Source: Photorhabdus asymbiotica
Lineage (GTDB): Bacteria; Pseudomonadota; Gammaproteobacteria; Enterobacterales; Enterobacteriaceae
DNA: 64,000 bases
Direction of reading: 5' to 3'
Assembly (NCBI RefSeq): GCF_003634575.1
Contig: NZ_RBLJ01000004.1
Span: 496,001 to 560,000, forward strand
The translations under genes and the position numbers were made by a program. Below, one piece after another: positions 9,599-60,285 of the stretch. The first letter of the stretch is position 1; every line of letters starts with the position of its first letter. The notes under the pieces are model-generated. The model did no database searches. It saw only the letters and a program-made list of their open reading frames with translations, and had not been told where the DNA came from.

Positions 9599-11404
9599 TC
9601 AAACATTTTTGTAATTAAATGAATGTCTTCCTGAGTATTTCCACAACGGTTCCCAGTAGGATTCTATGAAAGTTTTCACCGCATCTTCTCCCTCAATAAG
9701 ATAGTTGAATTCTGAAAGATATCCTGGATAGAGATTATCAGAACCCACTATGTATAGTTCATCATCAATTATTGTTACTTTTGCATGATTCCCAGGAGCA
9801 GGGGGAACTTTGGGATATACCTGCTCAGGACCACCTGCTTTAACTAAGGACCGGAATGGGCGTCCTATAGCACCTACCTGTGGAGGTCTTTCAGAAAGAG
9901 ACGGTTCTTTTAGCGTGGCAGTATAAGAATTTTCATCTGTGGTTGGCCATTTGTATGTAGTACCCTCAATTAAAAGATCTTCAGGTACTTTGTCTGTAAA
10001 GAAAAAAGGGGCAACTTCTATTCTTTTCAGTGCAGCCTGCCTGATTCCATCCGGATCTTCCAGCTTCTCATCGGTATGCTCATCATGTGTCAAATAGTAT
10101 TTAAATATTTCAAACGTTCTTCTGGCTCCAGAACCAAAAGAATATTGATCACCAGCAGCTCCTGCTGCTGCATCAAGCGGCGATACAACAACTTGAACTT
10201 CCAGCTCGGGGTTGGCAAGTAATGCTTCGATCAACCATCGGCACACATGATGATCTCGCCATTGTTTTTTCCATGCACTGACAAGATCCTGTTGGGACAT
10301 GCGAATTTTTTTCTTTGCATTCTTTATTATAAACTCTTTCATTATTTCAGAGCCTTTTTTATAATCCGTTCGCATATCAGGCCCAATCCAATATTTACCT
10401 ACGGATAATATCCGGCTTGCTTGCTTATATTCTGGGTCCTTAGGGGGATTTTTTAGGCATTCTTCTTTTTTTCTGTCTATATATTCAGTAATGTGCTGTT
10501 TTTTTAATGGGTCTTCCGGCTTTCCCACAATACCATTAGCATTAACCCATTTATTTCCATTTATATCAAAGAATTCTTTAGTTAAGAGGTCTGTATCAGC
10601 CTCCCACATATTATTTAAAAATAATTGTGAGCTTAATGATGCCGTTCCTATAACTTTAACAGAGACATCATGAACTGGAGGGTAATTTCTAAAAAGATCC
10701 ATATTTAAATTATGGCCTCCGACAAATGACTCAATTCCATCAACTGCGATAATTTTTGTATGGTTCCATGTCATTCTGGTATCAGTTTCAGAAACCATTT
10801 CCTCTGGTAGCAGCTTCTTCTCTAATGATATTTTAAGTCCGTCTACTATCCTGTAAAATCTACCAATCCATATTTCAGGTATACACTCCCAATGAGCTCT
10901 CCTCTCTTGCATTAATTTAATAATATCATTCTTCAATGCCAAATATTCAGGGGTACCTTCAAAGTATGAACCCACACCATTTAACAAAGATGTCGGCGTT
11001 TGAGCGAATAAGAGCCTTATCTGAGTTCTATCCTTCCTGTTTATTTTCTTTGTAAATGCGCGATCAATTGCCGATAGAATAACTTTTCTCCACTCTGCAT
11101 CCGGGGCATTTAAGGAGGAAATATCACAGCGATAACGCATGTTTTCCAGAATGCTTACAATTGCATCTTCAAATTCCGCTGCTCTTTTGACAGCCTGCGG
11201 CATTATCTCTTTTCCAAAAGGAAACCCCCATATTTTGGGAGTATCAAATATTTTTACATAGTTGATTTCACTGGTTTTATTAAAGTAACCGTCCAGTTTT
11301 TTTTGTAAGCCATCCAATAAATTCATATATGCATCCTCTAGGCAACAATTTTTTGATATATCAACCAACAGCTTGCCAGCATCAGGAAAGCTATTTGTAA
11401 TCAT
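9599..11404 (-). CDS. Two-HKD phospholipase D, possible secreted antibacterial or anti-host effector
   Basis: The 601-residue protein carries two HxKx4D motifs of the phospholipase D superfamily: WNHTKIIAVDG (His215, Lys217, Asp222) followed by GGHNLN, and GNHAKVTIIDD (His540, Lys542, Asp547) followed by VGSDN. Both are intact, so it should cleave phosphodiester bonds in phospholipids. No Sec signal peptide or membrane segment is seen. Length, lack of signal and two HKD motifs resemble Yersinia murine toxin (Ymt) and the Tle5 type VI lipase effectors; this is a family-level guess, since no VgrG, PAAR or immunity gene is adjacent. It stands alone, convergent with dsdA. A housekeeping transphosphatidylase is less likely, as enteric cardiolipin synthases are shorter and have membrane anchors. 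Confidence 0.8.
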   Translation of the reverse strand: MITNSFPDAGKLLVDISKNCCLEDAYMNLLDGLQKKLDGYFNKTSEINYVKIFDTPKIWGFPFGKEIMPQAVKRAAEFEDAIVSILENMRYRCDISSLNAPDAEWRKVILSAIDRAFTKKINRKDRTQIRLLFAQTPTSLLNGVGSYFEGTPEYLALKNDIIKLMQERRAHWECIPEIWIGRFYRIVDGLKISLEKKLLPEEMVSETDTRMTWNHTKIIAVDGIESFVGGHNLNMDLFRNYPPVHDVSVKVIGTASLSSQLFLNNMWEADTDLLTKEFFDINGNKWVNANGIVGKPEDPLKKQHITEYIDRKKEECLKNPPKDPEYKQASRILSVGKYWIGPDMRTDYKKGSEIMKEFIIKNAKKKIRMSQQDLVSAWKKQWRDHHVCRWLIEALLANPELEVQVVVSPLDAAAGAAGDQYSFGSGARRTFEIFKYYLTHDEHTDEKLEDPDGIRQAALKRIEVAPFFFTDKVPEDLLIEGTTYKWPTTDENSYTATLKEPSLSERPPQVGAIGRPFRSLVKAGGPEQVYPKVPPAPGNHAKVTIIDDELYIVGSDNLYPGYLSEFNYLIEGEDAVKTFIESYWEPLWKYSGRHSFNYKNV

Positions 11405-11734
11405 AGCTAATTTTTGAGGGGGGTAGGCTAAAAAAGATAAAACCGAGCTTCACTGTGCCTTTTCTAATGGAGTTAATGAAAAGATCAGATGGGTAATTTA
11501 GAAGGAACGTGTTGGTGTCATCGCATTAATCTTGTGGATATCCTGACATCTGGTATCAGATCTCTCTTGATTAATGTAACTGTGTAAGTTACATTAATTC
11601 ATATCAGCGGTCATCCCCGTTGTTGAAGGTTCGAGAATGGATACATTCCAACTGACATTGCTTGCTTTCGGTTTATGTACGTATTGATGATTTGCAACGC
11701 AGTGCATTTATTTAGTACATGTGAGAGAAAAAAT
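11405..11734. other. Upstream region between phospholipase D gene and ene-reductase gene
   Basis: Divergent promoter region of 330 bp. It holds the palindrome at 11570-11598 described separately; no gene seen. Confidence 0.6.
11574..11594. promoter_or_regulatory. Candidate Rrf2-family operator upstream of the ene-reductase gene
   Basis: ATGTAAC-N7-GTTACAT, inside a longer perfect inverted repeat (12-bp arms, 11570-11581 and 11587-11598). The same half-sites with the same 7-nt spacing occur at 13699-13719 before the Rrf2 regulator gene, which suggests one regulator binds both. Confidence 0.65.
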
Positions 11735-12790
11735 ATGCCTACACTTTTTGACCCAATTCGCATTGGTGATCTCGACTTGCCAAATCGTATCATTATGGCT
11801 CCTTTGACACGTACCCGTGCGGTAGGAGAAGGGCGTATTCCTAATGCGTTGATGGCGGAATACTATGCTCAGCGCGCTTCTGCTGGTTTGATTATCAGTG
11901 AAGCGACTTCAGTAACTCCACAGGGGGTTGGCTACGCTAATACGCCCGGTATTTGGTCAGATGAACAAGTTGCTGGCTGGCGATTGGTCACGGATGCGGT
12001 ACATGCTGCTGGTGGACGTATTTTTATACAGCTTTGGCATGTAGGGCGGATTTCAGATCCTATTTTCCTTAATGGGGAACGACCAGTAGCTCCGAGTGAG
12101 ATTGCGGCTGATGGTCATGTTAGCTTATTACGTCCAGAACGTCCGTTTGTGGTTCCGCGGGCGCTTGAAGCTAACGAAATTCCCGGCATTGTCGAAGCGT
12201 TCAGACGCGGAGCGGAAAATGCGAAAACGGCAGGATTTGACGGAGTAGAAATACACGGTGCCAATGGCTATTTACTCGATCAATTCTTGCAAGATAATGC
12301 CAATATACGTAAGGATCAGTACGGTGGTTCAATAGAAAATCGTGCTCGGTTGTTGCTGGAAGTGACAGATGCTTGTATTTCTGTTTGGGGAGCATCATGT
12401 GTTGGTATGCATTTGTCTCCACGCGGTGGTAGTTACTCAATGGAGGATTCCAATCCGGTGATGACTTTCGGATATGTCGCACGTGAACTTGGTAAACGCG
12501 GTATTGCTTTCATCTTCTCGCGGGATTCTGTTATTGAGGGGGATCTCAGTAAGGAAATAAAGGATGCTTTTGGGTCAACTTATATTGCTAATGAGCAACT
12601 GACTAAAGATAGTGCAGAAAAAATTCTTGCTGATGGCAGAGCTGATGCGGTGGCTTTTGGTGAATTGTTCATCTCTAACCCTGATCTCCCTCACCGGTTT
12701 TTAGTCAGAGCGCCATTTAATGAACCGAAGCCAGAAACATTTATGGTGCCTGGAGCAGCAGGCTATACCGATTATCCCTCGCTTACTTAA
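11735..12790 (+). CDS. NADH:flavin oxidoreductase / ene-reductase (NemA/OYE family)
   Basis: A 351-residue old-yellow-enzyme TIM barrel. The start is ATG at 11735, giving MPTLFDPIRIGDLDLPNRI as in the family; an in-frame ATG 60 bases upstream is not used because the extra residues are unlike the family. Visible signatures are APLTRTRA (FMN contact), LWHVGRISDP, the substrate-binding pair in EIHGANGYLLDQFL, QYGGSIENRAR and the C-terminal GAAGYTDYPSL. Relatives such as E. coli NemA (365 residues) reduce N-ethylmaleimide, glyoxals, nitrate esters and other electrophilic alkenes with NAD(P)H. It shares a candidate operator with the Rrf2 gene downstream, so it is probably induced by electrophile stress (inference). 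Confidence 0.88.
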   Translation: MPTLFDPIRIGDLDLPNRIIMAPLTRTRAVGEGRIPNALMAEYYAQRASAGLIISEATSVTPQGVGYANTPGIWSDEQVAGWRLVTDAVHAAGGRIFIQLWHVGRISDPIFLNGERPVAPSEIAADGHVSLLRPERPFVVPRALEANEIPGIVEAFRRGAENAKTAGFDGVEIHGANGYLLDQFLQDNANIRKDQYGGSIENRARLLLEVTDACISVWGASCVGMHLSPRGGSYSMEDSNPVMTFGYVARELGKRGIAFIFSRDSVIEGDLSKEIKDAFGSTYIANEQLTKDSAEKILADGRADAVAFGELFISNPDLPHRFLVRAPFNEPKPETFMVPGAAGYTDYPSLT

Positions 12791-17914: not shown

Positions 17915-18170
17915 GATCTCTTTTACCAATAAGTTATTCGACTATAAGTTTCAGTCAATACTCACTCTAGTTTTATGGTTTCTTAATTTTCTAAAAATCC
18001 TCAACAGAAAAGGAAAAGAATATTCAAAAAAATGATGATATACCACGTTCTAAGCCCTTTATTTTGATTTATCAAGTTATTGCCTATATCAGATTAGGAA
18101 AAATTCAAGTGAAACTCAGATTGATTAAACAGAACAGCGAGAAATAGGTAATAATAAAATCGATTATTTA

Positions 18171-18283
18171 TATACCCGTTATCTTTCAAGTTGCCTCTTT
18201 GCTGGCTGCACTCACTTACCCCGGTCACAGAGTTATCTATGCTCCCTGGTCGTCGCGAGGCATCTTGAAATCCATAGGGTATA
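18171..18283 (-). repeat. ERIC element, 113 bp, internally deleted; codes the end of a LuxR gene
   Basis: TATACCC at 18171 and GGGTATA at 18277-18283. The segment between the hairpin centre and the right arm is missing. Its right 47 bases are read as the last codons of the LuxR gene ending at 18237. Confidence 0.9.
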
Positions 18284-18977
18284 GCAAAATATGGCCTATA
18301 GACTGAAAGTATTTAGGTGGGATGTAAAGATCATAATTATTCTCTTTGCAAAATATTCTTAATTCAATGGCTGAGTTAACTGATAGTTTCTCATAGATAT
18401 TTTCGAAATATTTTTCTACAGTACGGTATGAAATTTTCATTTCTCTGGCGATGCATCTATTGTTGACGCCGCGACAGAATAAAAAAATAACTATCCATTC
18501 TTTTTCTTTCAATATATTGCTGGGTGGCTGAAATCTAATCGATATAGGAATGTCATTCTCTATATAATGAGACGCGGTAAAATTATGTATTTCTCTGGCG
18601 TGAGAAATAATGCCAATACACTGTTTATTTTCATCCATTAGTGGATACTTATTACAGAGATAGTAGGATATAGATTGCTCATTTTTGCTTTGAGGATGAG
18701 TGTTGAGAGATGATATTCGTTGCATACATTGTAAGACCTTACGATCATGTTCCTCAAAAAGATGAGCAAATTGATTAACTGGTGTCGGTAATTCTCTATC
18801 AGTATATCCGATAACATTAAAGTTTTCAGGTAACTTATTTGTTTTAATAAACATGGTATTTGCATAAATAAAACGGAATTCCTTATCTTTCACAGACCAT
18901 GGTTCTGAGCTTTTATCCCACATATTAGTTAACTGAGGAGTAATAAAAGGGACTTTTTTACATCCTGATCGACTCAT
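18237..18977 (-). CDS. PAS4-LuxR solo regulator, block type A, ERIC-derived C-terminus
   Basis: A 246-residue protein with an N-terminal PAS4 sensor (FRFIYANTMFIKTNKLPENF near residue 38, then GYTDRELPTPVNQF) and a C-terminal LuxR HTH (ILKEKEWIVIFLFCRGV... MKISYRTVEKYFENIYEKL, residues ~160-205). Such proteins lack an acyl-homoserine-lactone domain and no LuxI is nearby, so they are 'solos' thought to sense host or other signals. Its paralogues at 29490 and 33343 end at GHFLL; here an ERIC insertion has replaced the stop, adding 14 residues (YPMDFKMPRDDQGA). It is the type-A member of the first A-B-C block; the B and C members beside it are broken. Confidence 0.85.
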   Translation of the reverse strand: MSRSGCKKVPFITPQLTNMWDKSSEPWSVKDKEFRFIYANTMFIKTNKLPENFNVIGYTDRELPTPVNQFAHLFEEHDRKVLQCMQRISSLNTHPQSKNEQSISYYLCNKYPLMDENKQCIGIISHAREIHNFTASHYIENDIPISIRFQPPSNILKEKEWIVIFLFCRGVNNRCIAREMKISYRTVEKYFENIYEKLSVNSAIELRIFCKENNYDLYIPPKYFQSIGHILLYPMDFKMPRDDQGA

Positions 18978-45829: not shown

Positions 45830-45957
45830 GTCCATCTTTTCCTCTAAAGGGTACTCCCGCCGACATAAGGCGGGAGGGGAATGTGGACGGGCTCGGAAAG
45901 CCCGAAGAATCATCAGCCACGCTGATGCTGAATATATTGTTTAACCCCTTCCAACGG
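45830..45957 (-). repeat. 127-bp three-hairpin repeat, copy 2
   Basis: Reverse complement of 20457-20583 with only scattered changes; the three hairpins are kept. It lies ~100 bp upstream of the tnpB relic and points away from it. Confidence 0.72.
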
Positions 45958-46054
45958 CGCATCACCGCATGAACCCGCAAAATTTGTATTTTTGCATTGA
46001 AATTAACCAGATATGCCGTAGGATAGCGAACAAAATGACGACATATTGAATGCC

Positions 46055-46215
46055 ATGCTCATCCTGAAAGCCTATAAATTCAGACTCGAACCCACAGTAG
46101 CACAGTCGCAGCGTCTGCGGCACCCGTAACATTTTAGCGGCAGGGCATGCCGTGCTTGCCTGTGGAGGGAGGGTACAGTCAGGCCGCCCGTTGAAGCAGG
46201 AACCGGACACTGAGC
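46055..46215 (+). pseudogene. IS605-family tnpB (OrfB) relic, internally deleted
   Basis: 24 codons read MLILKAYKFRLEPTVAQSQR, the usual start of IS605 OrfB/TnpB proteins, and end in a stop. From 46131 in the next frame comes ILAAGHAVLACGGRVQSGRP then LKQEP, the usual end of these proteins after the zinc ribbon. The ~300 codons between, with the RuvC-like nuclease, are missing. TnpB proteins are RNA-guided nucleases; this one is dead. Confidence 0.85.
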
Positions 46216-46285
46216 CAATCAGTAGTCACCCACTAACTGGCTGGCATGGCATACTTATACCCTTTATAAAAAATTGTTGTCATCA

Positions 46286-47191
46286 ATGAAAATTATGAAA
46301 TCGCTTCGTACATTTGAATGGCGCGCTCTCCCGTTTCTGATGAAAGGCTTGATTAGGAGTGGTTTTCTCGCCTTGTTGCGCAGACAACGGGAAGATTGTT
46401 GGCTGGAGCGATGGCTGCCACTTATCCAAGCCCGAACTAAGGATTCAGAAGTGCTAGAAATTGGTTGTGGAGACGGGCGCGATACTGCCATTATTCATCG
46501 TGCTGGGTTAAAAGTGAAGGCGATAGACATATCTTCTGCAATGGTTAAGCGCGCGCGTGTTCGTACTCCTTCGGCTATATTTTTTGTCCAGGATTTACGA
46601 GATCCTTTCCCTATAGATAAGACCAGTGTGGTGATTTCCAGCTTGTCGCTGCACTATTTTTCCTGGGATGAGACTTTGGGTATTATTCGGCGAATAAGAG
46701 CGGTTTTACAGCCTGGTGGCGTCTTATTATGTCGATTGAATTCTACAAAGGACGTTAACTTCGGTGCGAGAGGACACGCTAAAATTGATAATGACTTTTA
46801 CCTGGTCCATGGAACACCAATTGCTCCACTGCAAGAAGCCATATCGGCTGGGCGTGATCTTGTATTCGACTATACACCTCAACTCTATCTTAATTTGCGA
46901 AGACAATTCCGACAGCACGTGGTTGGTATATTTATTGTGCCTCCGACCTTATCAGAACTGATAAATCGTCTTTCGAAGAGGGGGACAGAACAGGGGCAAG
47001 AGCTTCATATCAAACAAAGGATGGCCCTACAAGATCTAGCCTATGCAGATGAGCACGATTATCACGTTGTTAATGATGACTTCGAAAAAACACTTCAAAC
47101 TCTCAAATGCATACATACATCTGAACGTTGTCGAATGAGTCGTATCATCGGGTTGCAAGAGCGTTGTCAAATGTGTCGCCGCTCTCAATGA
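46286..47191 (+). CDS. Chimera: SAM methyltransferase joined to the C-terminal half of a guanylate-kinase-like protein
   Basis: Residues ~1-165 form a class I methyltransferase: motif I VLEIGCGDGRD, AIDISSAMVKRAR, SSLSLHYFSWDE and LQPGGVLLCRLNSTKDVNFG. Residues ~170-300 resemble guanylate kinase from its middle to its end: GTPIAPLQEAISAGRDLVFD, VGIFIVPPTLSELINRLSKR and HDYHVVNDDFEKTLQTLK. The kinase P-loop and GMP-binding part are absent. Near 47160 a frameshift seems to cut the natural end: a shifted frame reads ALNDVLDPLNERLAKMVDDE and its stop overlaps the next start as ATGA. So two genes were probably fused by deletion and then shifted. The methyltransferase half may still fold. The start has a poor ribosome site. 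Confidence 0.7.
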   Translation: MKIMKSLRTFEWRALPFLMKGLIRSGFLALLRRQREDCWLERWLPLIQARTKDSEVLEIGCGDGRDTAIIHRAGLKVKAIDISSAMVKRARVRTPSAIFFVQDLRDPFPIDKTSVVISSLSLHYFSWDETLGIIRRIRAVLQPGGVLLCRLNSTKDVNFGARGHAKIDNDFYLVHGTPIAPLQEAISAGRDLVFDYTPQLYLNLRRQFRQHVVGIFIVPPTLSELINRLSKRGTEQGQELHIKQRMALQDLAYADEHDYHVVNDDFEKTLQTLKCIHTSERCRMSRIIGLQERCQMCRRSQ

Positions 47192-47239
47192 TGTTCTCGA
47201 TCCACTAAATGAGCGTTTAGCAAAGATGGTAGATGACGA

Positions 47240-48223
47240 ATGAACGTGATTACATATGCAGATGTGCTTGAACATCTCACTATGCAGTCAGAGAAAATCA
47301 GAGCATATAAAAACGATTTTGTACCTGAAGAGGCTTGGCGAGTGATCCTTTCTCTGTACGGAAAGGATGTGGGAAGTTTCGTTTTTGGTCACTCATTCAT
47401 ATTGTTGAAGCCAGAGACAATTGCCAGAAGACTGTCGTGTCAGGTCATTTCCTATTTAGCCCAACGGAGCTTTGCACCAGTGGCTATCGCTTGTGTGGAA
47501 CTGTCGCGCAATGCGGCTCACCATATTTGGCGATTTCAGTGGAATGCGGCCACTACAGACAGAATCGAGCTGACAAACTTGGTTAACTCTCAAAGTCCAT
47601 CAATATTGATCATGTTACGTGATTGTGCCCCAACTTCGGTGCCGACGGCGGTGAAACTTTGGCGTCTAAAGGGCTCTGCTCATGCAGCACGGCGAACAGC
47701 AGATCAACTGCATAGTGTACTTGGAATGCATAATCGAATGCTTGGCTTCGTTCATACTCCGGACGAACCTGCCGATTTGGTGAGAGAGCTCTCCATCTTT
47801 TTTGATGCAACTGAACTTAGCATGTTACTGCACACTTGTCGGTCAACAGAGCAATCAATAGATGATCTAGTTATCCAGTGCTCGCGAGCGGTAGCTGAAT
47901 TGGAGTCACAATATTCTGCTCATACAGTTAATCCTAATGAAGTGATTCAACGACTCCGTTTTTCAGCGGCCAGTTGTGCGCAGTCTCCTGTCTGGCGAGA
48001 TTACTCACGAGGACAACCGATGACTCTGGCAAAGATTTTAGCGCATTTTCGAGAGTACGGGCTTGAGAGAGATTCATGGGATGTGCTGACTATTGCAGCA
48101 GAATTAATTGAACATGACATAAAAGGTGTGCACGCTCTGCTTGATGCTCAGGCCATCGATGAAGTATTCGCTCAGTGGGCTGCACAAAACTCTCAAGACT
48201 ATAAATTTGGTAAGGATTTATAA
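47240..48223 (+). CDS. Nucleoside-diphosphate-kinase-like protein with an extra C-terminal domain
   Basis: 327 residues. Residues ~45-190 follow the NDP kinase fold: FGHSFILLKPETIARRLSCQ at the start (the usual ALIKPDA), FAPVAIACVELS, and a C-terminal stretch LGMHNRMLGFVHTPDEPADL like the RN.xHGSD of active NDP kinases, so the phospho-histidine seems kept. Residues ~195-327 have no family I recognise. Ordinary NDP kinases are ~140 residues, so this is a divergent, pathway-specific type. The start ATG overlaps the shifted stop of the guanylate-kinase-like gene. It runs directly into the nucleotidyltransferase gene (no gap). Confidence 0.65.
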   Translation: MNVITYADVLEHLTMQSEKIRAYKNDFVPEEAWRVILSLYGKDVGSFVFGHSFILLKPETIARRLSCQVISYLAQRSFAPVAIACVELSRNAAHHIWRFQWNAATTDRIELTNLVNSQSPSILIMLRDCAPTSVPTAVKLWRLKGSAHAARRTADQLHSVLGMHNRMLGFVHTPDEPADLVRELSIFFDATELSMLLHTCRSTEQSIDDLVIQCSRAVAELESQYSAHTVNPNEVIQRLRFSAASCAQSPVWRDYSRGQPMTLAKILAHFREYGLERDSWDVLTIAAELIEHDIKGVHALLDAQAIDEVFAQWAAQNSQDYKFGKDL

Positions 48224-49255
48224 ATGAAAAATTGTGTGGTGGAAAACGAGTATGTAGAAATGTTGAATGGTGGGTTGGTTCTCACCCTCAAATTTATTTT
48301 TGATAATGCCTATCTAAAAGATTCTGATGCGGCTTTTTTAGGGGGATCATTAATTGAAGGTATTGGTAACCGTTACTCTGATATAGATGTTCATGTGGTG
48401 ACAGAGAAACTTTTGCTTGAGAAGGACATTGAGCCAAAAAGACACTACCGAGTATTAAGTTCGAACCGCTCTATCCTTACAGGAAAAAATCCTGAAGATG
48501 AGGTGTTCCTAATTCACACGGTTATACCTGGAAGTCATGTGAAAGTGGATATTGGATATAGAACCATACAAGAGATTGAACGATTGGCATCTGTGGTGCA
48601 GGAGACTTTTGACTACGCGGTACGGTCACTCGTGCTTCTGACTAAGTACATGGATAATCGTAACATGGCTTTTATTCATAGATTATTTAATTCCATTGAG
48701 CTATGTGGTGTCGATAGACTTGATGGATTGCGTCAGCAAATTGGCAAACATCGTTTTGAATATCTGATGTATAGATGGAAGGCTTCTGATTTTTCCGTAC
48801 TTCTTGATTTATTGGGCGCTTGGGAGAGCAAGGATTGGATTCGCTGCGCAGATATGGCGAGAGAGAATATGGTGACTCAATTTCAAGCATATACGCATCT
48901 GTGTGGTAACACCCACTACAGCTGAAAATGGATTATTACTTATGCTAAGCGATATATTGAATATTCGCCGTTGTTTCAACGATTTCTCACGTTAATCATG
49001 GCTAGTTGTGGCACGACGCCTGAATCCCAAAAGGCATATATATTAGCGACCATTGATTTTGTTGATAGCATATTTGAAGCCAGCCATGAAATTCTTCGAA
49101 TGGAGCTTTCTTTCCCCTCTGGGAATGCAGCGTGTGCTTCAATCGATGAGTATTTCCGATCAGAGGCTGATGCATATTCAGAAATGGAGATCGAATATAG
49201 GAAGAAAGCCTATGGCATTATTGGTAAACCTACGAGGGCCTGGTTTAATGATTAA
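48224..49255 (+). pseudogene. Nucleotidyltransferase-like gene interrupted by one in-frame TGA
   Basis: 233 residues run from 48224 to TGA at 48923-48925, and the same frame continues without another stop to 49255 (another 109 codons), so one stop codon splits a gene of ~343 codons. The N-terminal part has the pol-beta-type nucleotidyltransferase signature FLGGSLIEGIGNRYSDIDVH (G-S-x-D-x-D, residues ~40-60) and a third acidic strand HVKVDIGYRT. The part after the stop is helical (PESQKAYILATIDFVDSIFE). Either the gene is dead, makes a short 233-residue enzyme, or is read through. Its end overlaps the next gene start (ATGATTAA). Confidence 0.7.
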
Positions 49256-49980
49256 ACGGCCTATAGTTGGAGTGTCTTGCTGTTTAAGGTCCATTGCTTT
49301 TGGCGATTATCCCCCTACGCCACACCATACCGTGTTTCACAAGTATGTGGATTTTGTTGTAAGGCAGCTAAAAGCCGTTCCCATATTACTTCCAGCTACA
49401 CCAGAAATTGCCAATAGTCCTGATGGATATAACTCGCTTATTTCGCGATTAGATGGAGTTTTGCTGACTGGCTCACCCAGTAATGTTGGTGTGCGATGGC
49501 AGAAGGGAAAATTTACACGTATTTTACCCGTAGGGCTTGCAGACCATGAAAGAGATTAATGTTGCATTTGGAGGAGAGCTTCATAATAAGATTTATTCGT
49601 TGGAAGGGTTCCTTGATCATCGTTCTGACAAGTCATTGCCTTACGAGAAGAGATACGAGTCCCGGCACGCAGTAGAAATCTTGGAAGGAACATTATTGGA
49701 ATATCTTTTATGTGATCAGGGCGTCGATAATCGTGTTTTTGATGTTAATTCCCTGCATAGCCAAGGCATTGCACTGGCTGGGCAGAATATAGCAATAGAA
49801 GCTGTCGCAGAAGATGAGGTGATTGAGGCGATCTCACTCAGTTCAGCAAGTGCTTTCACCATGGGGGTTCAGTGGCATATTGAATGGGCGGATAACGATC
49901 AACCCTTAGATCTTTGTATCAGTAATGCATTTAGAACGGCATGCGAAGAAAGACTTCATACAAACGACGGGAAAAAGTGA
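49248..49980 (+). pseudogene. PuuD-like class I glutamine amidotransferase (peptidase C26), broken
   Basis: The first frame (49248-49559) starts MIKRPIVGVSCCLRSIAFGD and reaches LDGVLLTGSPSNVGV, as in gamma-glutamyl-GABA hydrolase PuuD. A second frame (from 49549 to 49980) resumes at EINVAFGGELHNKIYS and ends with the GVQWHIEW catalytic His-x-Glu. The nucleophile region, GICRGxQE in the family, is gone and the frame shifts there. Without the cysteine it cannot hydrolyse gamma-glutamyl amides. In antibiotic pathways such enzymes remove a protecting gamma-glutamyl group. Confidence 0.82.
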
Positions 49981-49988
49981 AGGCAGCT

Positions 49989-50717
49989 ATGATTACGGAA
50001 CCTAAACTCAGTGGAAAGGTGGCTATTGTGACGGGAGCATCCAGCGGTATTGGGATGGCTTTAGCACGCAGGCTGGCAGCTGATGGAATGAACTTGGTAT
50101 TACATGGTCGGCGAGAAGCGCGACTGCGTGCTTTAGAGCGGGAGTTAGGGAGCTTATGCTGGTTTGCGGGTGATTTAACTGATGCGCAGACTCCAGGCAC
50201 TTTAATCGATGCTGCCATGGAGAAATTTGGTAGATTCGACTTTGCGATCAATAACGCAGGAATTAATCACACTGGAACCATTAATGAGATCGATATTGAC
50301 AAAATGTGTTCTATGGTAAGAGTCAATGTGGAAGCAGCATTTCGGTTTACTTATACGGTCCTGAAGCATTTTTTACGCGAAGGGAAAGGGCATCTCATCC
50401 ATACGACGAGTGTTATGGGTTATAAAGTACGTGAGAGTGCTGGTGGATATGCGGGTACTAAGCATGCTGTCGAAGCTTTATGCGAAGCATTACGTCTTGA
50501 ACTTGCAAGAAGTGCAGTTAAGGTTTCATGTATTGCTCCAGGTCTGGTCCAGATTGAATTGCATCGTGATCTTATAGTACATCCCTCAGTATCAAGAGAT
50601 ATCGCTCGACCATTAAGTGCTAATGATGTGGCTCAGACAATTATCTGGGTCATGACACAACCAGAACATATCAATATTCCCCAGATAGTGGTATTGCCGC
50701 AAGATCATCCAATATAG
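49989..50717 (+). CDS. Short-chain dehydrogenase/reductase
   Basis: A 242-residue classical SDR. NAD(P) motif TGASSGIG (residues ~16-23), NNAG-type AINNAGINHTG, the catalytic Ser in HTTSVMG and YxxxK as YAGTKHAVEA are all present, so it should be active. The Arg-rich HGRREARLRAL after strand 2 favours NADP(H). Start ATG 49989 follows GAAGGCAG; an in-frame ATG 48 bases upstream lies inside the previous gene. It is one of the two intact genes of this set; the substrate is unknown. Confidence 0.88.
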   Translation: MITEPKLSGKVAIVTGASSGIGMALARRLAADGMNLVLHGRREARLRALERELGSLCWFAGDLTDAQTPGTLIDAAMEKFGRFDFAINNAGINHTGTINEIDIDKMCSMVRVNVEAAFRFTYTVLKHFLREGKGHLIHTTSVMGYKVRESAGGYAGTKHAVEALCEALRLELARSAVKVSCIAPGLVQIELHRDLIVHPSVSRDIARPLSANDVAQTIIWVMTQPEHINIPQIVVLPQDHPI

Positions 50718-50759
50718 CGATATAGTTAATTAAGTGCCTTTTAGCAAGGAATAAAAGAT

Positions 50760-51602
50760 ATGGACCCTATCTCACTTGGCCTAGTCATGGTCTCTGCGAT
50801 CATGCATGCTGGTTGGAATCTTTTTGTCAAGAAAGATGAAGATAAATTCTTGTCTCTTACCGTTATGGCCGCTACTTCAGGTGTGCTTTGTGCGTTATTA
50901 CTTTTGTTCATGCCTGGTATAGATGTGAGTGCTTGGAAGATCCTTATTATTTCTGCCCCTCTTCATGCTGGATATCGAGTTTGTTTGAGCCTTGGCTACA
51001 AATATGGAGACATGAGTCAAGTTTACCCCATCGCACGTGGGGCAACGCCTTTACTTGTGGCGTTAATCTCCGTTGTTTTGCTCGGTGTTCATCTGGAATT
51101 CACTCAGATTGCGGGAATTGTTGCGATTGCTTTAGGGATCATGTGGCTGACTTTCCACGGTGGTTTCCCGAATAATCATGAGGGACGAGCAATTAGCTTT
51201 GCGCTCGGTACCGCCACCTTTATCGCTGTGTTTACATTGCTCGATAGTCGGGGAGCACGTCTCAGCGGTAATCCGTTTTCATATGTGCTTTGGCTGTTTG
51301 TACTGGAAGGAATTTTGATGTTTGTGCTTGCTGCGTCTGTCAACAGACGTCGATTGTTAGATTATGTCAGCCGTAATGGACGCACTTGTATGGTCAATGG
51401 CCTAGTCATGTCGGTTGCACACGGCTTGATTATCCTAGCCCTTTCAAGAAGTCCTGCTGCGTTGGTTTCGGCCCTGAGAGAAACTAGTGTGATTTTTGGC
51501 GTTATTTTCAGTGCGGGGATTCTTAAAGAGAAAATAGGTCCAGTAAGACTAGTTTGTACTTTGATAGTCGTGATTGGCATTTTTCTAACCGTTTTCAAAT
51601 GA
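50760..51602 (+). CDS. EamA/DMT-superfamily exporter
   Basis: A 280-residue membrane protein with about ten hydrophobic segments in two EamA halves (for example ISLGLVMVSAIMHAGWNLFV and SYVLWLFVLEGILMFVLAAS). Typical DMT wording is GDMSQVYPIARGATPLLVAL and, at the end, LRETSVIFGVIFSAGILKEK. Such carriers export amino acids or metabolites. Its place at the end of the gene set suggests it exported the product. GGAATAAAAGAT precedes the ATG. Confidence 0.88.
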   Translation: MDPISLGLVMVSAIMHAGWNLFVKKDEDKFLSLTVMAATSGVLCALLLLFMPGIDVSAWKILIISAPLHAGYRVCLSLGYKYGDMSQVYPIARGATPLLVALISVVLLGVHLEFTQIAGIVAIALGIMWLTFHGGFPNNHEGRAISFALGTATFIAVFTLLDSRGARLSGNPFSYVLWLFVLEGILMFVLAASVNRRRLLDYVSRNGRTCMVNGLVMSVAHGLIILALSRSPAALVSALRETSVIFGVIFSAGILKEKIGPVRLVCTLIVVIGIFLTVFK

Positions 51603-51609
51603 AATAGTA

Positions 51610-51736
51610 TATACCCAATAGATTTCGAGTTGCAGCGCGGCGGCAAGTGAATGAATCCCCAGGAGAATAGATAATTATGTGACTGGGGTGAATGAACGCA
51701 GCCAACAAAGCAGCAACTTGAAGGATGAAGGGTATA
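51610..51736 (+). repeat. ERIC element, 127 bp
   Basis: TATACCC...GGGTATA ends; marks the right edge of the 46.3-51.6 kb gene set. Confidence 0.93.
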
Positions 51737-51789
51737 GTGAATTTGGTTACTGAGTTTTTATTATAAGGGGGGCCCGTTAATCAGAATAT

Positions 51790-52032
51790 TTATTCAGGCA
51801 GGGAATTCAGGGTAATATCCAACTCATTTCTATCAGAGATAATGACCTGAATTTGTAGATTATTGTCTGAATGGTTGTTTGTAATGATAGTTACATCTTC
51901 ATTTTTTGCATATTTTTTTGCCACTTGTAATAGCTCTCTTACCAGCTGTTCGATTTGATTATTCATAATTATTTCTTGTCCTTTCTCTAAAACATAATCT
52001 AGGTGTTGATTCAATAATACCCAATTAGTCAT
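51790..52032 (-). CDS. Small protein of unknown function
   Basis: An 80-residue frame; if the internal Met23 (base 51966) is the true start, the product is 58 residues beginning MNNQIEQLVRELLQVAKKYA. AGGAC lies upstream of that Met at a slightly long spacing; the first ATG has none. The sequence has an amphipathic helix and two strands (DVTIITNN, LQIQVIISDRNELDITL) and no signal or membrane part. I do not recognise it. Adjacent genes are an EamA exporter and EndA-like nuclease, neither obviously linked. Confidence 0.5.
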   Translation of the reverse strand: MTNWVLLNQHLDYVLEKGQEIIMNNQIEQLVRELLQVAKKYAKNEDVTIITNNHSDNNLQIQVIISDRNELDITLNSLPE

Positions 52033-52256
52033 GCTTTAATGATGTAATAACCGCTATTTTCTGTGCGCTTTAGCATCAATTATGCGTTGTCAGACTAGAT
52101 TTTCATGATATTTCAATTAGTTTGTTAAATAGCCGTTCGCTTTAAAAGAGGGGTTAAGAAGAAATGCAGAGAAACAATGTTTGTCTTATAGGTCGATTAT
52201 AAGGCAACATAAAAGGGAAAGATCAAAATGATATTTTGAATAAATAAGGTGTACCA

Positions 52257-53777: not shown

Positions 53778-53904
53778 TATACCCAATAGATTTCAAGTTG
53801 CAGCGCGGCGGCAAGTGAACGAATCCCCAAGAGCATAGATAACTATGTGACTGGGGTGAGAGAAAGCAGCCAACAAAGAGGCAACTTGAAAGATAACAGG
53901 TATA
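53778..53904 (+). repeat. ERIC element, 127 bp, in the phoH leader
   Basis: TATACCC...AGGTATA ends with the GTGACTGGGGTGAG core; lies between Pho box and gene. Confidence 0.92.
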
Positions 53905-53963
53905 GTTATTGTATCGGTGATATTCCACCACATGGGTGAAAACAACGATAAGGTGCTACTGCT

Positions 53964-55112: not shown

Positions 55113-55239
55113 TATACCCAATAGATTTCAAGTTGCAGTGCGGCGGCAAGTGAACGAATCCCCAGGAGCATAGATAACTATGTGACTGGGGTGAATGAAC
55201 GCAGCCAACAAAGCAGCAACTTGAAGGATGAAGGGTATA
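55113..55239 (+). repeat. ERIC element, 127 bp
   Basis: TATACCC...GGGTATA ends with the GTGACTGGGGTGAATGAA core. Confidence 0.93.
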
Positions 55240-60141: not shown

Positions 60142-60268
60142 TATACCCTTCATCCTTCAAGTTGCTGCTTTGTTGGCTGCTTTCACTCACCCCAGTCACA
60201 GAGTTATCTATGCTCCTGGGGATTCGTTCACTTGCCGTCGCGCTGCAACTCGAAATTTATTGGGTATA
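60142..60268 (-). repeat. ERIC element, 127 bp
   Basis: TATACCC...GGGTATA ends, core in reverse orientation; between the NRPS gene and the siderophore-interacting protein gene. Confidence 0.93.
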
Positions 60269-60285
60269 TTGGCTGATGTTAGGCA

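Follow-up and report, generated by a model that had tools for sequence, protein, structure and literature searches.

A decayed copy of a rare gene cluster in Photorhabdus asymbiotica has intact relatives in other bacteria and might once have served the synthesis of a small phosphorus-containing molecule

Analysing a 64,000-nucleotide stretch of the Photorhabdus asymbiotica genome (hereafter the window; assembly GCF_003634575.1, contig NZ_RBLJ01000004.1, positions 496,001-560,000), we found that positions 46286-51602 of this window hold a real but decayed copy of a rare gene cluster, of which intact relatives exist in other genomes. The cluster associates a methyltransferase, two nucleotide-kinase-like proteins, a pol-beta-type nucleotidyltransferase, a PuuD-like gamma-glutamyl hydrolase, a short-chain dehydrogenase/reductase (SDR) and an exporter, along with a split transketolase that the window copy has lost. 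We tentatively propose, as a possibility rather than a probability, that the cluster was acquired horizontally, has decayed recently and, in its intact form, directs the biosynthesis of a small phosphorus-containing molecule for export, made by raising an organic phosphate (R-P) to a triphosphate (R-PPP).

All the genes named in an earlier interpretation of this DNA made without database searches (the sequence-only reading) are present, and all lie on the + strand:

46286-46808, + strand: N-terminal part of an S-adenosylmethionine-dependent methyltransferase, fused in frame to a kinase remnant (Methyltransf_25 1.8e-17)
46808-47239, + strand: C-terminal half of a guanylate-kinase-like (Gmk-like) gene (Guanylate_kin 4.7e-12, profile positions 79-178)
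47240-48223, + strand: open nucleoside-diphosphate-kinase-like (NDK-like) gene, 327 amino acids, with an NDK domain and N- and C-terminal extensions (PF00334 6.3e-10)
48224-49255, + strand: split pol-beta-type nucleotidyltransferase (tblastn 92%, both sides of the stop)
49248-49980, + strand: PuuD-like gamma-glutamyl hydrolase in two frames (Peptidase_C26 2.1e-7 and 6.5e-27, in two open reading frames)
49989-50717, + strand: open SDR (adh_short 2.1e-44)
50760-51602, + strand: open DMT/EamA exporter (EamA 1.4e-23)

The sequence-only reading had listed a methyltransferase and parts of a guanylate-kinase-like gene as separate; the two families were correctly recognised, but both Pfam matches lie inside a single fused open reading frame (46274-47191). 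The methyltransferase piece shares 83% nucleotide identity with a gene of the Photorhabdus caribbeanensis locus L003 (L003:6243-6914) and the kinase piece 92.6% amino-acid identity with residues 92-212 of L003:9291-10001. A deletion of ~2.8 kb, corresponding to L003 6777-9565, has cost the methyltransferase its end and the kinase its P-loop half, and has taken both transketolase genes with it; the C-terminal end of the kinase, read by eye, is out of frame after ~47170. The transketolase pair, which sits between methyltransferase and kinase in P. caribbeanensis, was invisible to the sequence-only reading because of this deletion. Further downstream, a single in-frame TGA (48923-48925) splits the nucleotidyltransferase, which is 92% identical to its P. 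caribbeanensis counterpart before and after the stop; intact homologues (5 aligned) measure 343-347 amino acids, and the window fragment matches NTP_transf_2 at only 0.0089 (16.8 bits vs a cut-off of 21). The PuuD-like frame breaks at ~49.55 kb and lacks the segment carrying the catalytic cysteine. Damage to at least three genes, as had been proposed, is thus confirmed in the fused methyltransferase/kinase, the stop-split nucleotidyltransferase and the frame-broken hydrolase. The NDK-like protein keeps its catalytic histidine, but at another position it has a histidine where all 10 of the NDK-like proteins aligned with it have an arginine; this arginine aligns with an active-site arginine of Ndk.

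The single nucleotidyltransferase stop may be a sequencing error, an explanation that does not apply to the deletion. As the locus reads, the pathway cannot run from it, because it has no transketolase pair, its kinase has no P-loop, its hydrolase has no cysteine and its transferase is split. Between the window and P. caribbeanensis, dN/dS ranged from 0.07 to 0.23 over eight pieces, with 0.07 for the exporter, 0.11 for the SDR (91% identical to that of L003) and 0.11 for the nucleotidyltransferase, counted across both sides of its stop. Flanking control genes gave 0.12 and 0.14, and it is because of this resemblance that the decay looks recent.

Intact copies are rare and scattered. Only 2 of the 12 Photorhabdus genomes carry the NDK-like gene, namely the source genome and P. 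caribbeanensis HG29 (G006), and those same two were the only carriers among 145 relatives searched. All genes of the P. caribbeanensis cluster are open, in the order methyltransferase, TKN and TKC (the two transketolase halves), Gmk-like, NDK-like, nucleotidyltransferase, PuuD-like, SDR and DMT exporter. A contig scan yielded five loci, in P. caribbeanensis, Paracidovorax cattleyae, P. oryzae, P. citrulli (where the contig ends within the NDK-like gene) and Vreelandella neptunia, and the core TKN-TKC-GMK-NDK-NTase-PuuD-DMT has an identical order in the four whole loci. Around this core the content varies: SDR and methyltransferase accompany it in Photorhabdus and Paracidovorax, the Vreelandella cluster being without an SDR and Paracidovorax having the methyltransferase and a cystathionine-lyase-like gene downstream. 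Since the gene order is identical in other genera, the cluster is more than a chance assemblage; the possibility, raised along with the sequence-only reading, that these genes never occur together elsewhere is thereby dismissed, and its view of the window copy as the fossil of a pathway kept by relatives holds for P. caribbeanensis and the other genera. The flanks exceed the cluster in G+C in P. cattleyae (70% vs 61%) and Vreelandella (53% vs 45%), which fits horizontal spread without proving it, and the cluster is probably horizontally mobile. Upstream of the intact Vreelandella cluster, on the opposite strand, lies a LuxI-type autoinducer synthase gene (L006:376-1017, - strand; Autoind_synth 2.6e-29), a neighbour that suggests quorum-sensing control of that cluster.

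The two kinase-like proteins depart from their housekeeping relatives at telling positions. The hosts already carry housekeeping ndk (4/4 tested) and gmk (above cut-off in 7/7), so the cluster kinases are additional, and a simple origin as housekeeping duplicates was ruled out by these extra copies and by the residue divergence. Against TIGR03263, the Gmk-like protein of L003 scores 131.9 bits, under the equivalog cut-off of 160.45, and the cluster copies of G000, G006, G993 and G995 stay under this cut-off, which the housekeeping proteins exceed in 7/7 cases. Assignment to PhnN (ribose bisphosphate kinase) was tried and rejected (37.9 vs 131.9 bits). In all four intact copies of the transketolase-bearing (TK-type) clusters, the P-loop GPGGTGKT and both phosphate-site arginines are kept, whereas at three positions the S, E and D found without exception in seven of seven housekeeping Gmk are replaced by N, Q and T, respectively (each in 4/4). 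We take the changed positions to be the guanine contacts S34, E69 and D100, and the arginines to be the phosphate contacts R38 and R41. Because the phosphate site is kept and the base site lost, the Gmk-like enzyme would act on another phosphate than GMP. The nucleotide-like product suggested by the sequence-only reading was not borne out: with the guanine contacts lost and no nucleobase gene recognised in the core, a phosphate other than a nucleotide is no less likely. Among the NDK-like proteins, that of the window exceeds the PF00334 gathering score of 27 (39.5 bits), with P. cattleyae (26.2 bits) and the Enterobacteriaceae genome G458 (21 bits) falling under it. In an alignment of 11 NDK-like proteins, the window's included, with four housekeeping Ndk, the catalytic histidine and a lysine are present in 11/11, and the asparagine preceding this histidine, presumably the ribose contact in Ndk, in only 3/11, with a glycine in the four TK-type rows.

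The nucleotidyltransferase keeps, in all nine sequences aligned, acidic motifs of the form G[ST]L[IV]EG..SD.D, together with a third acidic residue, which we take as the hallmark of the pol-beta superfamily. Its relatives at loci L018, L019 and L020 matched no Pfam family at 0.01, no NCBIfam family was matched at 0.001, and the PDB held no credible solved relative, the one hit (E 0.36) being a chance match to an unrelated photosystem protein. On its sequence, it is a pol-beta-type enzyme of no named family. The Cys-His-Glu triad of the PuuD-like protein is invariant in the five intact copies; the protein scores 168.6 bits against PRK11366 (PuuD / gamma-glutamyl-GABA hydrolase), under the equivalog cut-off of 266. 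By sequence, its nearest solved relatives are 7d4r, a probable glutamine amidotransferase that we take to be Pseudomonas aeruginosa SpuA, and PuuD 6vtv. SpuA and PuuD act in polyamine breakdown, whereas our hydrolase stands in a biosynthetic-looking operon. The later enzymes of the Campylobacter O-methyl phosphoramidate pathway involve CDP-glutamine and a gamma-glutamyl-CDP-amidate hydrolase; a hydrolase of this CDP-amidate type was rejected as an identity for the PuuD-like protein, which scores under the NF045546 cut-off. The transketolase halves have as best solved relatives the split-chain transketolase 6yak/6yaj of Carboxydothermus hydrogenoformans, an entry that names a split transketolase only and offers no link to our cluster. 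For the DMT exporter, the nearest NCBIfam is TIGR03340 (phosphonate-utilisation-associated membrane protein), at 152.1 bits, below the cut-off of 288.15.

From these elements we infer a set of reactions, their order and the identities of R and of the acceptor. The split transketolase would make or consume a ketose, probably phosphorylated. The Gmk-like enzyme would then phosphorylate an unusual organic phosphate R-P, not GMP, to R-PP, from which the NDK-like enzyme would form R-PPP through a phospho-histidine. The nucleotidyltransferase would be the obvious user of this triphosphate, because it accompanies the NDK-like gene in the proteobacterial genomes retrieved by our genome search; handling R-PPP as its 'nucleotide', it would transfer R-P to a gamma-glutamyl-bearing acceptor with loss of pyrophosphate, this acceptor being possibly the amide of glutamine or an amine capped with a gamma-glutamyl group. 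Glutamate would next be hydrolysed off by the PuuD-like enzyme, the SDR and methyltransferase would tailor the product, and the DMT protein would export it.

The association of the NDK-like gene with the nucleotidyltransferase was also found outside the TK-type clusters. Across 398 Pseudomonadota genomes, the NDK-like model matched 3 (the source genome, G458 and G361) and the nucleotidyltransferase model 4, and all three NDK-like genomes carry the nucleotidyltransferase within ~4 kb; leaving out the source genome, 2/2 NDK-like genomes fall among the 3 nucleotidyltransferase genomes of 397 (p ~4e-5). The fourth nucleotidyltransferase match, G471, is weak (32 positions, E 2e-4). Searches by taxon gave the source genome and G458 among 295 genomes of the order, the source genome and one weak match of 75 positions among 369 Gammaproteobacteria, and, for the NDK-like gene, G361 and G721 among 295 genomes of G361's family. 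Gene content around these matches recurs in part: G458 (locus L017) has aminotransferase, MFS-like, NDK-like, PuuD-like and nucleotidyltransferase genes; G361 has the nucleotidyltransferase with gamma-glutamyl cyclotransferase-like, thymidylate-kinase-like, formyltransferase-like, aminotransferase-like, NDK-like and MFS-like genes (aminotransferase and MFS recognised by reading); and G721 has NDK-like, aminotransferase-like, formyltransferase-like and MFS-like genes, identified by reading, plus a nucleotidyltransferase. On plasmids, the nucleotidyltransferase was found in 2 of 72,556 records, from Agrobacterium (pAt1, L019) and Neorhizobium (L020), the latter with two copies and a PuuD-like gene, and NDK-like proteins in nine records, eight from Streptomyces and one from Enterobacter. 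Gamma-glutamyl removal thus recurs as a PuuD-like gene beside the nucleotidyltransferase in G458 and Neorhizobium and as the cyclotransferase in G361, in addition to the TK-type clusters, with none seen in G721, and a partner resembling a nucleoside monophosphate (NMP) kinase recurs in thymidylate-kinase-like form in G361, Agrobacterium, Neorhizobium and one Streptomyces plasmid. Considering 18 NDK-like loci (the window, L003-L012, L017, L018, L025 and L047-L050), in which every open reading frame of at least 90 amino acids in non-TK loci was compared with our own nucleotidyltransferase profile and a subset of proteins with Pfam, the nucleotidyltransferase family is present in 10: the window, L003-L007, L017, L018, L025 and L011 (E 2e-12).

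Generalising from these loci, NMP-kinase-like and NDK-like enzymes could form a cross-phylum module that makes a non-nucleotide R-PPP, used by the pol-beta transferase instead of a nucleoside triphosphate (NTP) to attach R-P to the nitrogen of a glutamine or gamma-glutamyl group, deglutamylation then leaving a free P-NH2 or an amine. We consider this wider proposal improbable. Several observations weigh against the R-PPP route itself or against its extension. The module is inconstant: 2 of the 18 NDK-like loci (L009 and L010) have a PF14907 nucleotidyltransferase, and no nucleotidyltransferase was found in 6 of them, all on Streptomyces plasmids (L008, L012, L047-L050). Conversely, the rhizobial nucleotidyltransferase loci are without an NDK-like gene in the 30 kb examined. 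Gmk-like genes were not found in G458, G361 or G721, nor were PuuD-like ones in G361, in G721 or at the loci of Streptomyces and Enterobacter, and the transketolase halves are confined to TK-type clusters among the loci scanned. The PuuD-like protein is also far nearer to PuuD (168.6 bits) than to the gamma-glutamyl-CDP-amidate hydrolase NF045546 (53.3 bits, cut-off 250). No gamma-glutamyl ligase was noticed in the intact clusters, whose translations were read with no profile search, and the acceptor named above is for this reason a guess. At a fourth guanine-contact position (S80), the change from S to P is shared by 2/7 housekeeping Gmk, which makes it uninformative, and it was not counted. 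Finally, the Photorhabdus clusters, with a G+C of 44%, are not below their surroundings (40% for the window, 43% for the L003 flanks).

Other plasmid and genomic loci deserve mention in their own right. The Streptomyces scopuliridis plasmid locus L012 holds together PEP (phosphoenolpyruvate) mutase, thymidylate-kinase-like and NDK-like genes with annotated prs and type II GAPDH, and appears to be a phosphonate-type cluster without an assigned product. On an Enterobacter chuandaensis plasmid (L010:10002-22239), the NDK-like gene belongs to a series that also includes an APH-type kinase, two annotated iron-containing redox enzymes, the PF14907 nucleotidyltransferase, an MFS transporter and a peptidase of the DUF2817/M14 type, and this series looks like another natural-product cluster. 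A Gmk-like match on the plasmid of Streptomyces sp. HUAS 15-9 (L052) reaches 44.8% identity, vs 33-35% for the other nine among the matches listed; of its three diagnostic positions, one keeps the serine and two differ (Q for E, C for D). The L052 genes lie at 9748-11934 (- strand) and 17995-18660 (+ strand), with aminotransferase, ahcY-like, cupin and ABC transporter genes beside them. A 729-residue neighbour shows ordered NDK motifs matched by 0/20000 shuffles, with a pattern written after seeing the sequence and profile scores near zero, and is only suggestive of a fusion of NDK and nucleotidyltransferase. The two rhizobial plasmids (L019, L020) are typed as conjugative and carry thymidylate-kinase-like, pyrF-like, ATP-grasp and aminotransferase genes near the nucleotidyltransferase (in Neorhizobium, ATP-grasp and aminotransferase by reading). 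According to the translations, the Enterobacteriaceae variant of G458 (L017, 1384-18608) is bordered by a mutS-like gene on one side and by type VI secretion-like genes on the other, and an IS3-like transposase adjoins it; it had no megablast match in Escherichia coli. The Vreelandella nucleotidyltransferase had no match in phages, and a phage origin was rejected on this ground.

In the window, the cluster belongs to what appears to be an insert of ~6.2 kb, since the match to the nearest relative, G011, stops at 45839 and restarts at 52037. The flanks are an aquaporin-like gene (by sequence) and Endonuclease I, which are separated by ~410 bp in G011, and the insert comprises, besides the genes listed above:

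45840-46241, unstranded: IS200/IS605-family insertion sequence (IS) relic that opens the insert (~280 of 402 bases recognisable)
51610-51740, unstranded: ERIC-like repeat of ~127 bp near the downstream edge, with further copies in the window
51741-52036, unstranded: rest of the insert, after which the empty-site match of G011 resumes at 52037

The IS relic and the ERIC noted at the edges by the sequence-only reading are both there. By blastn, the former matches plasmid-borne IS200/IS605 copies (tnpA, some with TnpB) at ~82% identity, over query positions 2/4-283 in two pieces. The latter, to which we apply the name ERIC (enterobacterial repetitive intergenic consensus) as a presumption, occurs at ~51.61-51.74 kb as one of many copies, the 64-kb window giving 18 matches including the query, 13 of them longer than 115 bp (e.g. 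51610-51736, 53778-53906, 55113-55239 and 60142-60269). The interval between the aquaporin and endonuclease genes varies across the genus, from ~6.6 kb in the window to ~3.4-3.7 kb in seven genomes (G001-G004, G006, G007 and G009) and ~0.3-0.4 kb in G008, G010 and G011, and is split over two contigs in G005. In P. caribbeanensis (G006, locus L027), this interval has no similarity to the insert of the window. The two Photorhabdus copies occupy different sites, because the G006 cluster is on another contig than its aquaporin/endonuclease pair.

No named pathway with this gene set was found among open-licence full-text papers, in agreement with the sequence-only reading, which knew of none. The nearest published relative, by likeness of family names and with no comparison of its proteins with ours, is the argolaphos cluster of Streptomyces monomycini (alpA-P; PMC8976061), which shares the NDK-like AlpE (291 amino acids), the nucleotidyltransferase AlpM (291 amino acids, cd05403) and an MFS exporter. 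It differs by its PEP mutase, its full phosphonate route and its ATP-grasp and GNAT ligases, and its Table 1 has no transketolase, guanylate kinase or PuuD-like hydrolase (PMC8976061). The main text names AlpE a single time, in that table, and gives it no pathway step, and a cytidine monophosphate (CMP) handle is described for fosfomycin, FR-900098 and phosphinothricin (PMC8976061). A similar logic can be recognised in the Campylobacter O-methyl phosphoramidate capsule pathway, with its gamma-glutamyl-bearing phosphoryl intermediate and amidotransferase-like removal of glutamate. A phosphorylated glutamine amide, made by a glutamine kinase, is known from that pathway (PMC6429109). Our cluster differs from it in that neither a glutamine kinase nor such a cytidylyltransferase was seen, and the PuuD-like protein matches its hydrolase family weakly and is closer to PuuD. 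Within the genus, the ADG (adgA-E) and 4'-thiothymidine (thm) clusters are likewise small-molecule clusters around nucleotide chemistry, with different genes as described, puromycin-like for adgB-E and radical-SAM-based for thm (PMC9239236, PMC12691670).

The main rival to the R-PPP route would have the nucleotidyltransferase place an NMP from an ordinary NTP on a phosphate or phosphonate intermediate, for activation or protection, while the kinases rebuild the NTP from the released NMP. Argolaphos lends itself to this explanation, as it pairs AlpE with an AlpM that its authors propose to act by cytidylylation (PMC8976061), and so does the Streptomyces plasmid locus with PEP mutase, thymidylate-kinase-like and NDK-like genes. 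However, a dedicated recycling is hard to explain in hosts that already have ndk and gmk, the kinase substrate pockets are changed and are not copies of the housekeeping ones, and no PEP mutase exceeded the cut-off (TIGR02320, 319.55 bits) in any of eight genomes, both Photorhabdus, two Paracidovorax and Vreelandella included, and we hold this handle to be somewhat unlikely. A strict phosphonate cluster was rejected for the proteobacterial sets on the same PEP mutase counts; sub-threshold matches of 118-132 bits occurred in 5/8 genomes and likewise in 6/14 controls, E. coli included, none over the cut-off. The cluster could otherwise make an unusual nucleoside triphosphate or nucleotide conjugate acting as an antimetabolite, with kinases retuned to the analogue, an unlikely option in our opinion: it accords with the pyrF-like and tmk-like genes adjoining nucleotidyltransferase relatives on rhizobial plasmids and with the nucleoside antibiotics ADG and 4'-thiothymidine of Photorhabdus, but no nucleobase or pentose-base gene was recognised in the TK-type core and the published adgA-E and thm clusters consist, as described, of other genes (PMC9239236, PMC12691670).

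Self-protection offers another role for the same enzymes. FomA/FomB and the ANT enzymes inactivate antibiotics by phosphorylation and nucleotidylation, and pol-beta nucleotidyltransferases and kinases are frequent among resistance enzymes; the kinases and the nucleotidyltransferase might accordingly inactivate the product, leaving only transketolase, SDR, methyltransferase and PuuD-like enzyme as biosynthetic. Three successive inactivating enzymes with an order kept in three genera would be unusual, and both kinases and the nucleotidyltransferase are in all four whole TK-type copies, which is not true of SDR and methyltransferase, and we regard this as quite improbable. Finally, Gmk and NDK families are near-universal and could have met by chance as duplicated housekeeping genes, an explanation that is scarcely credible given the order conserved across genera, which already refutes it, the deep divergence from the housekeeping copies, the drop in G+C relative to the flanks in P. 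cattleyae and Vreelandella and the empty site in G011.

If the cross-phylum module exists, it would represent a second route to phosphoramidate natural products, unrelated to that of Campylobacter. If the R-PPP route itself is right, common nucleotide kinases would have been enlisted to make the energy-rich triphosphate of a non-nucleotide for an unnamed family of nucleotidyltransferases. This could explain the NDK-like genes that have no assigned step in published clusters, such as argolaphos AlpE, and would provide genome miners with a signature for hidden phosphorus natural products in insect-, plant- and marine-associated bacteria. The intact and decayed copies of Photorhabdus offer a natural comparison for metabolite work.

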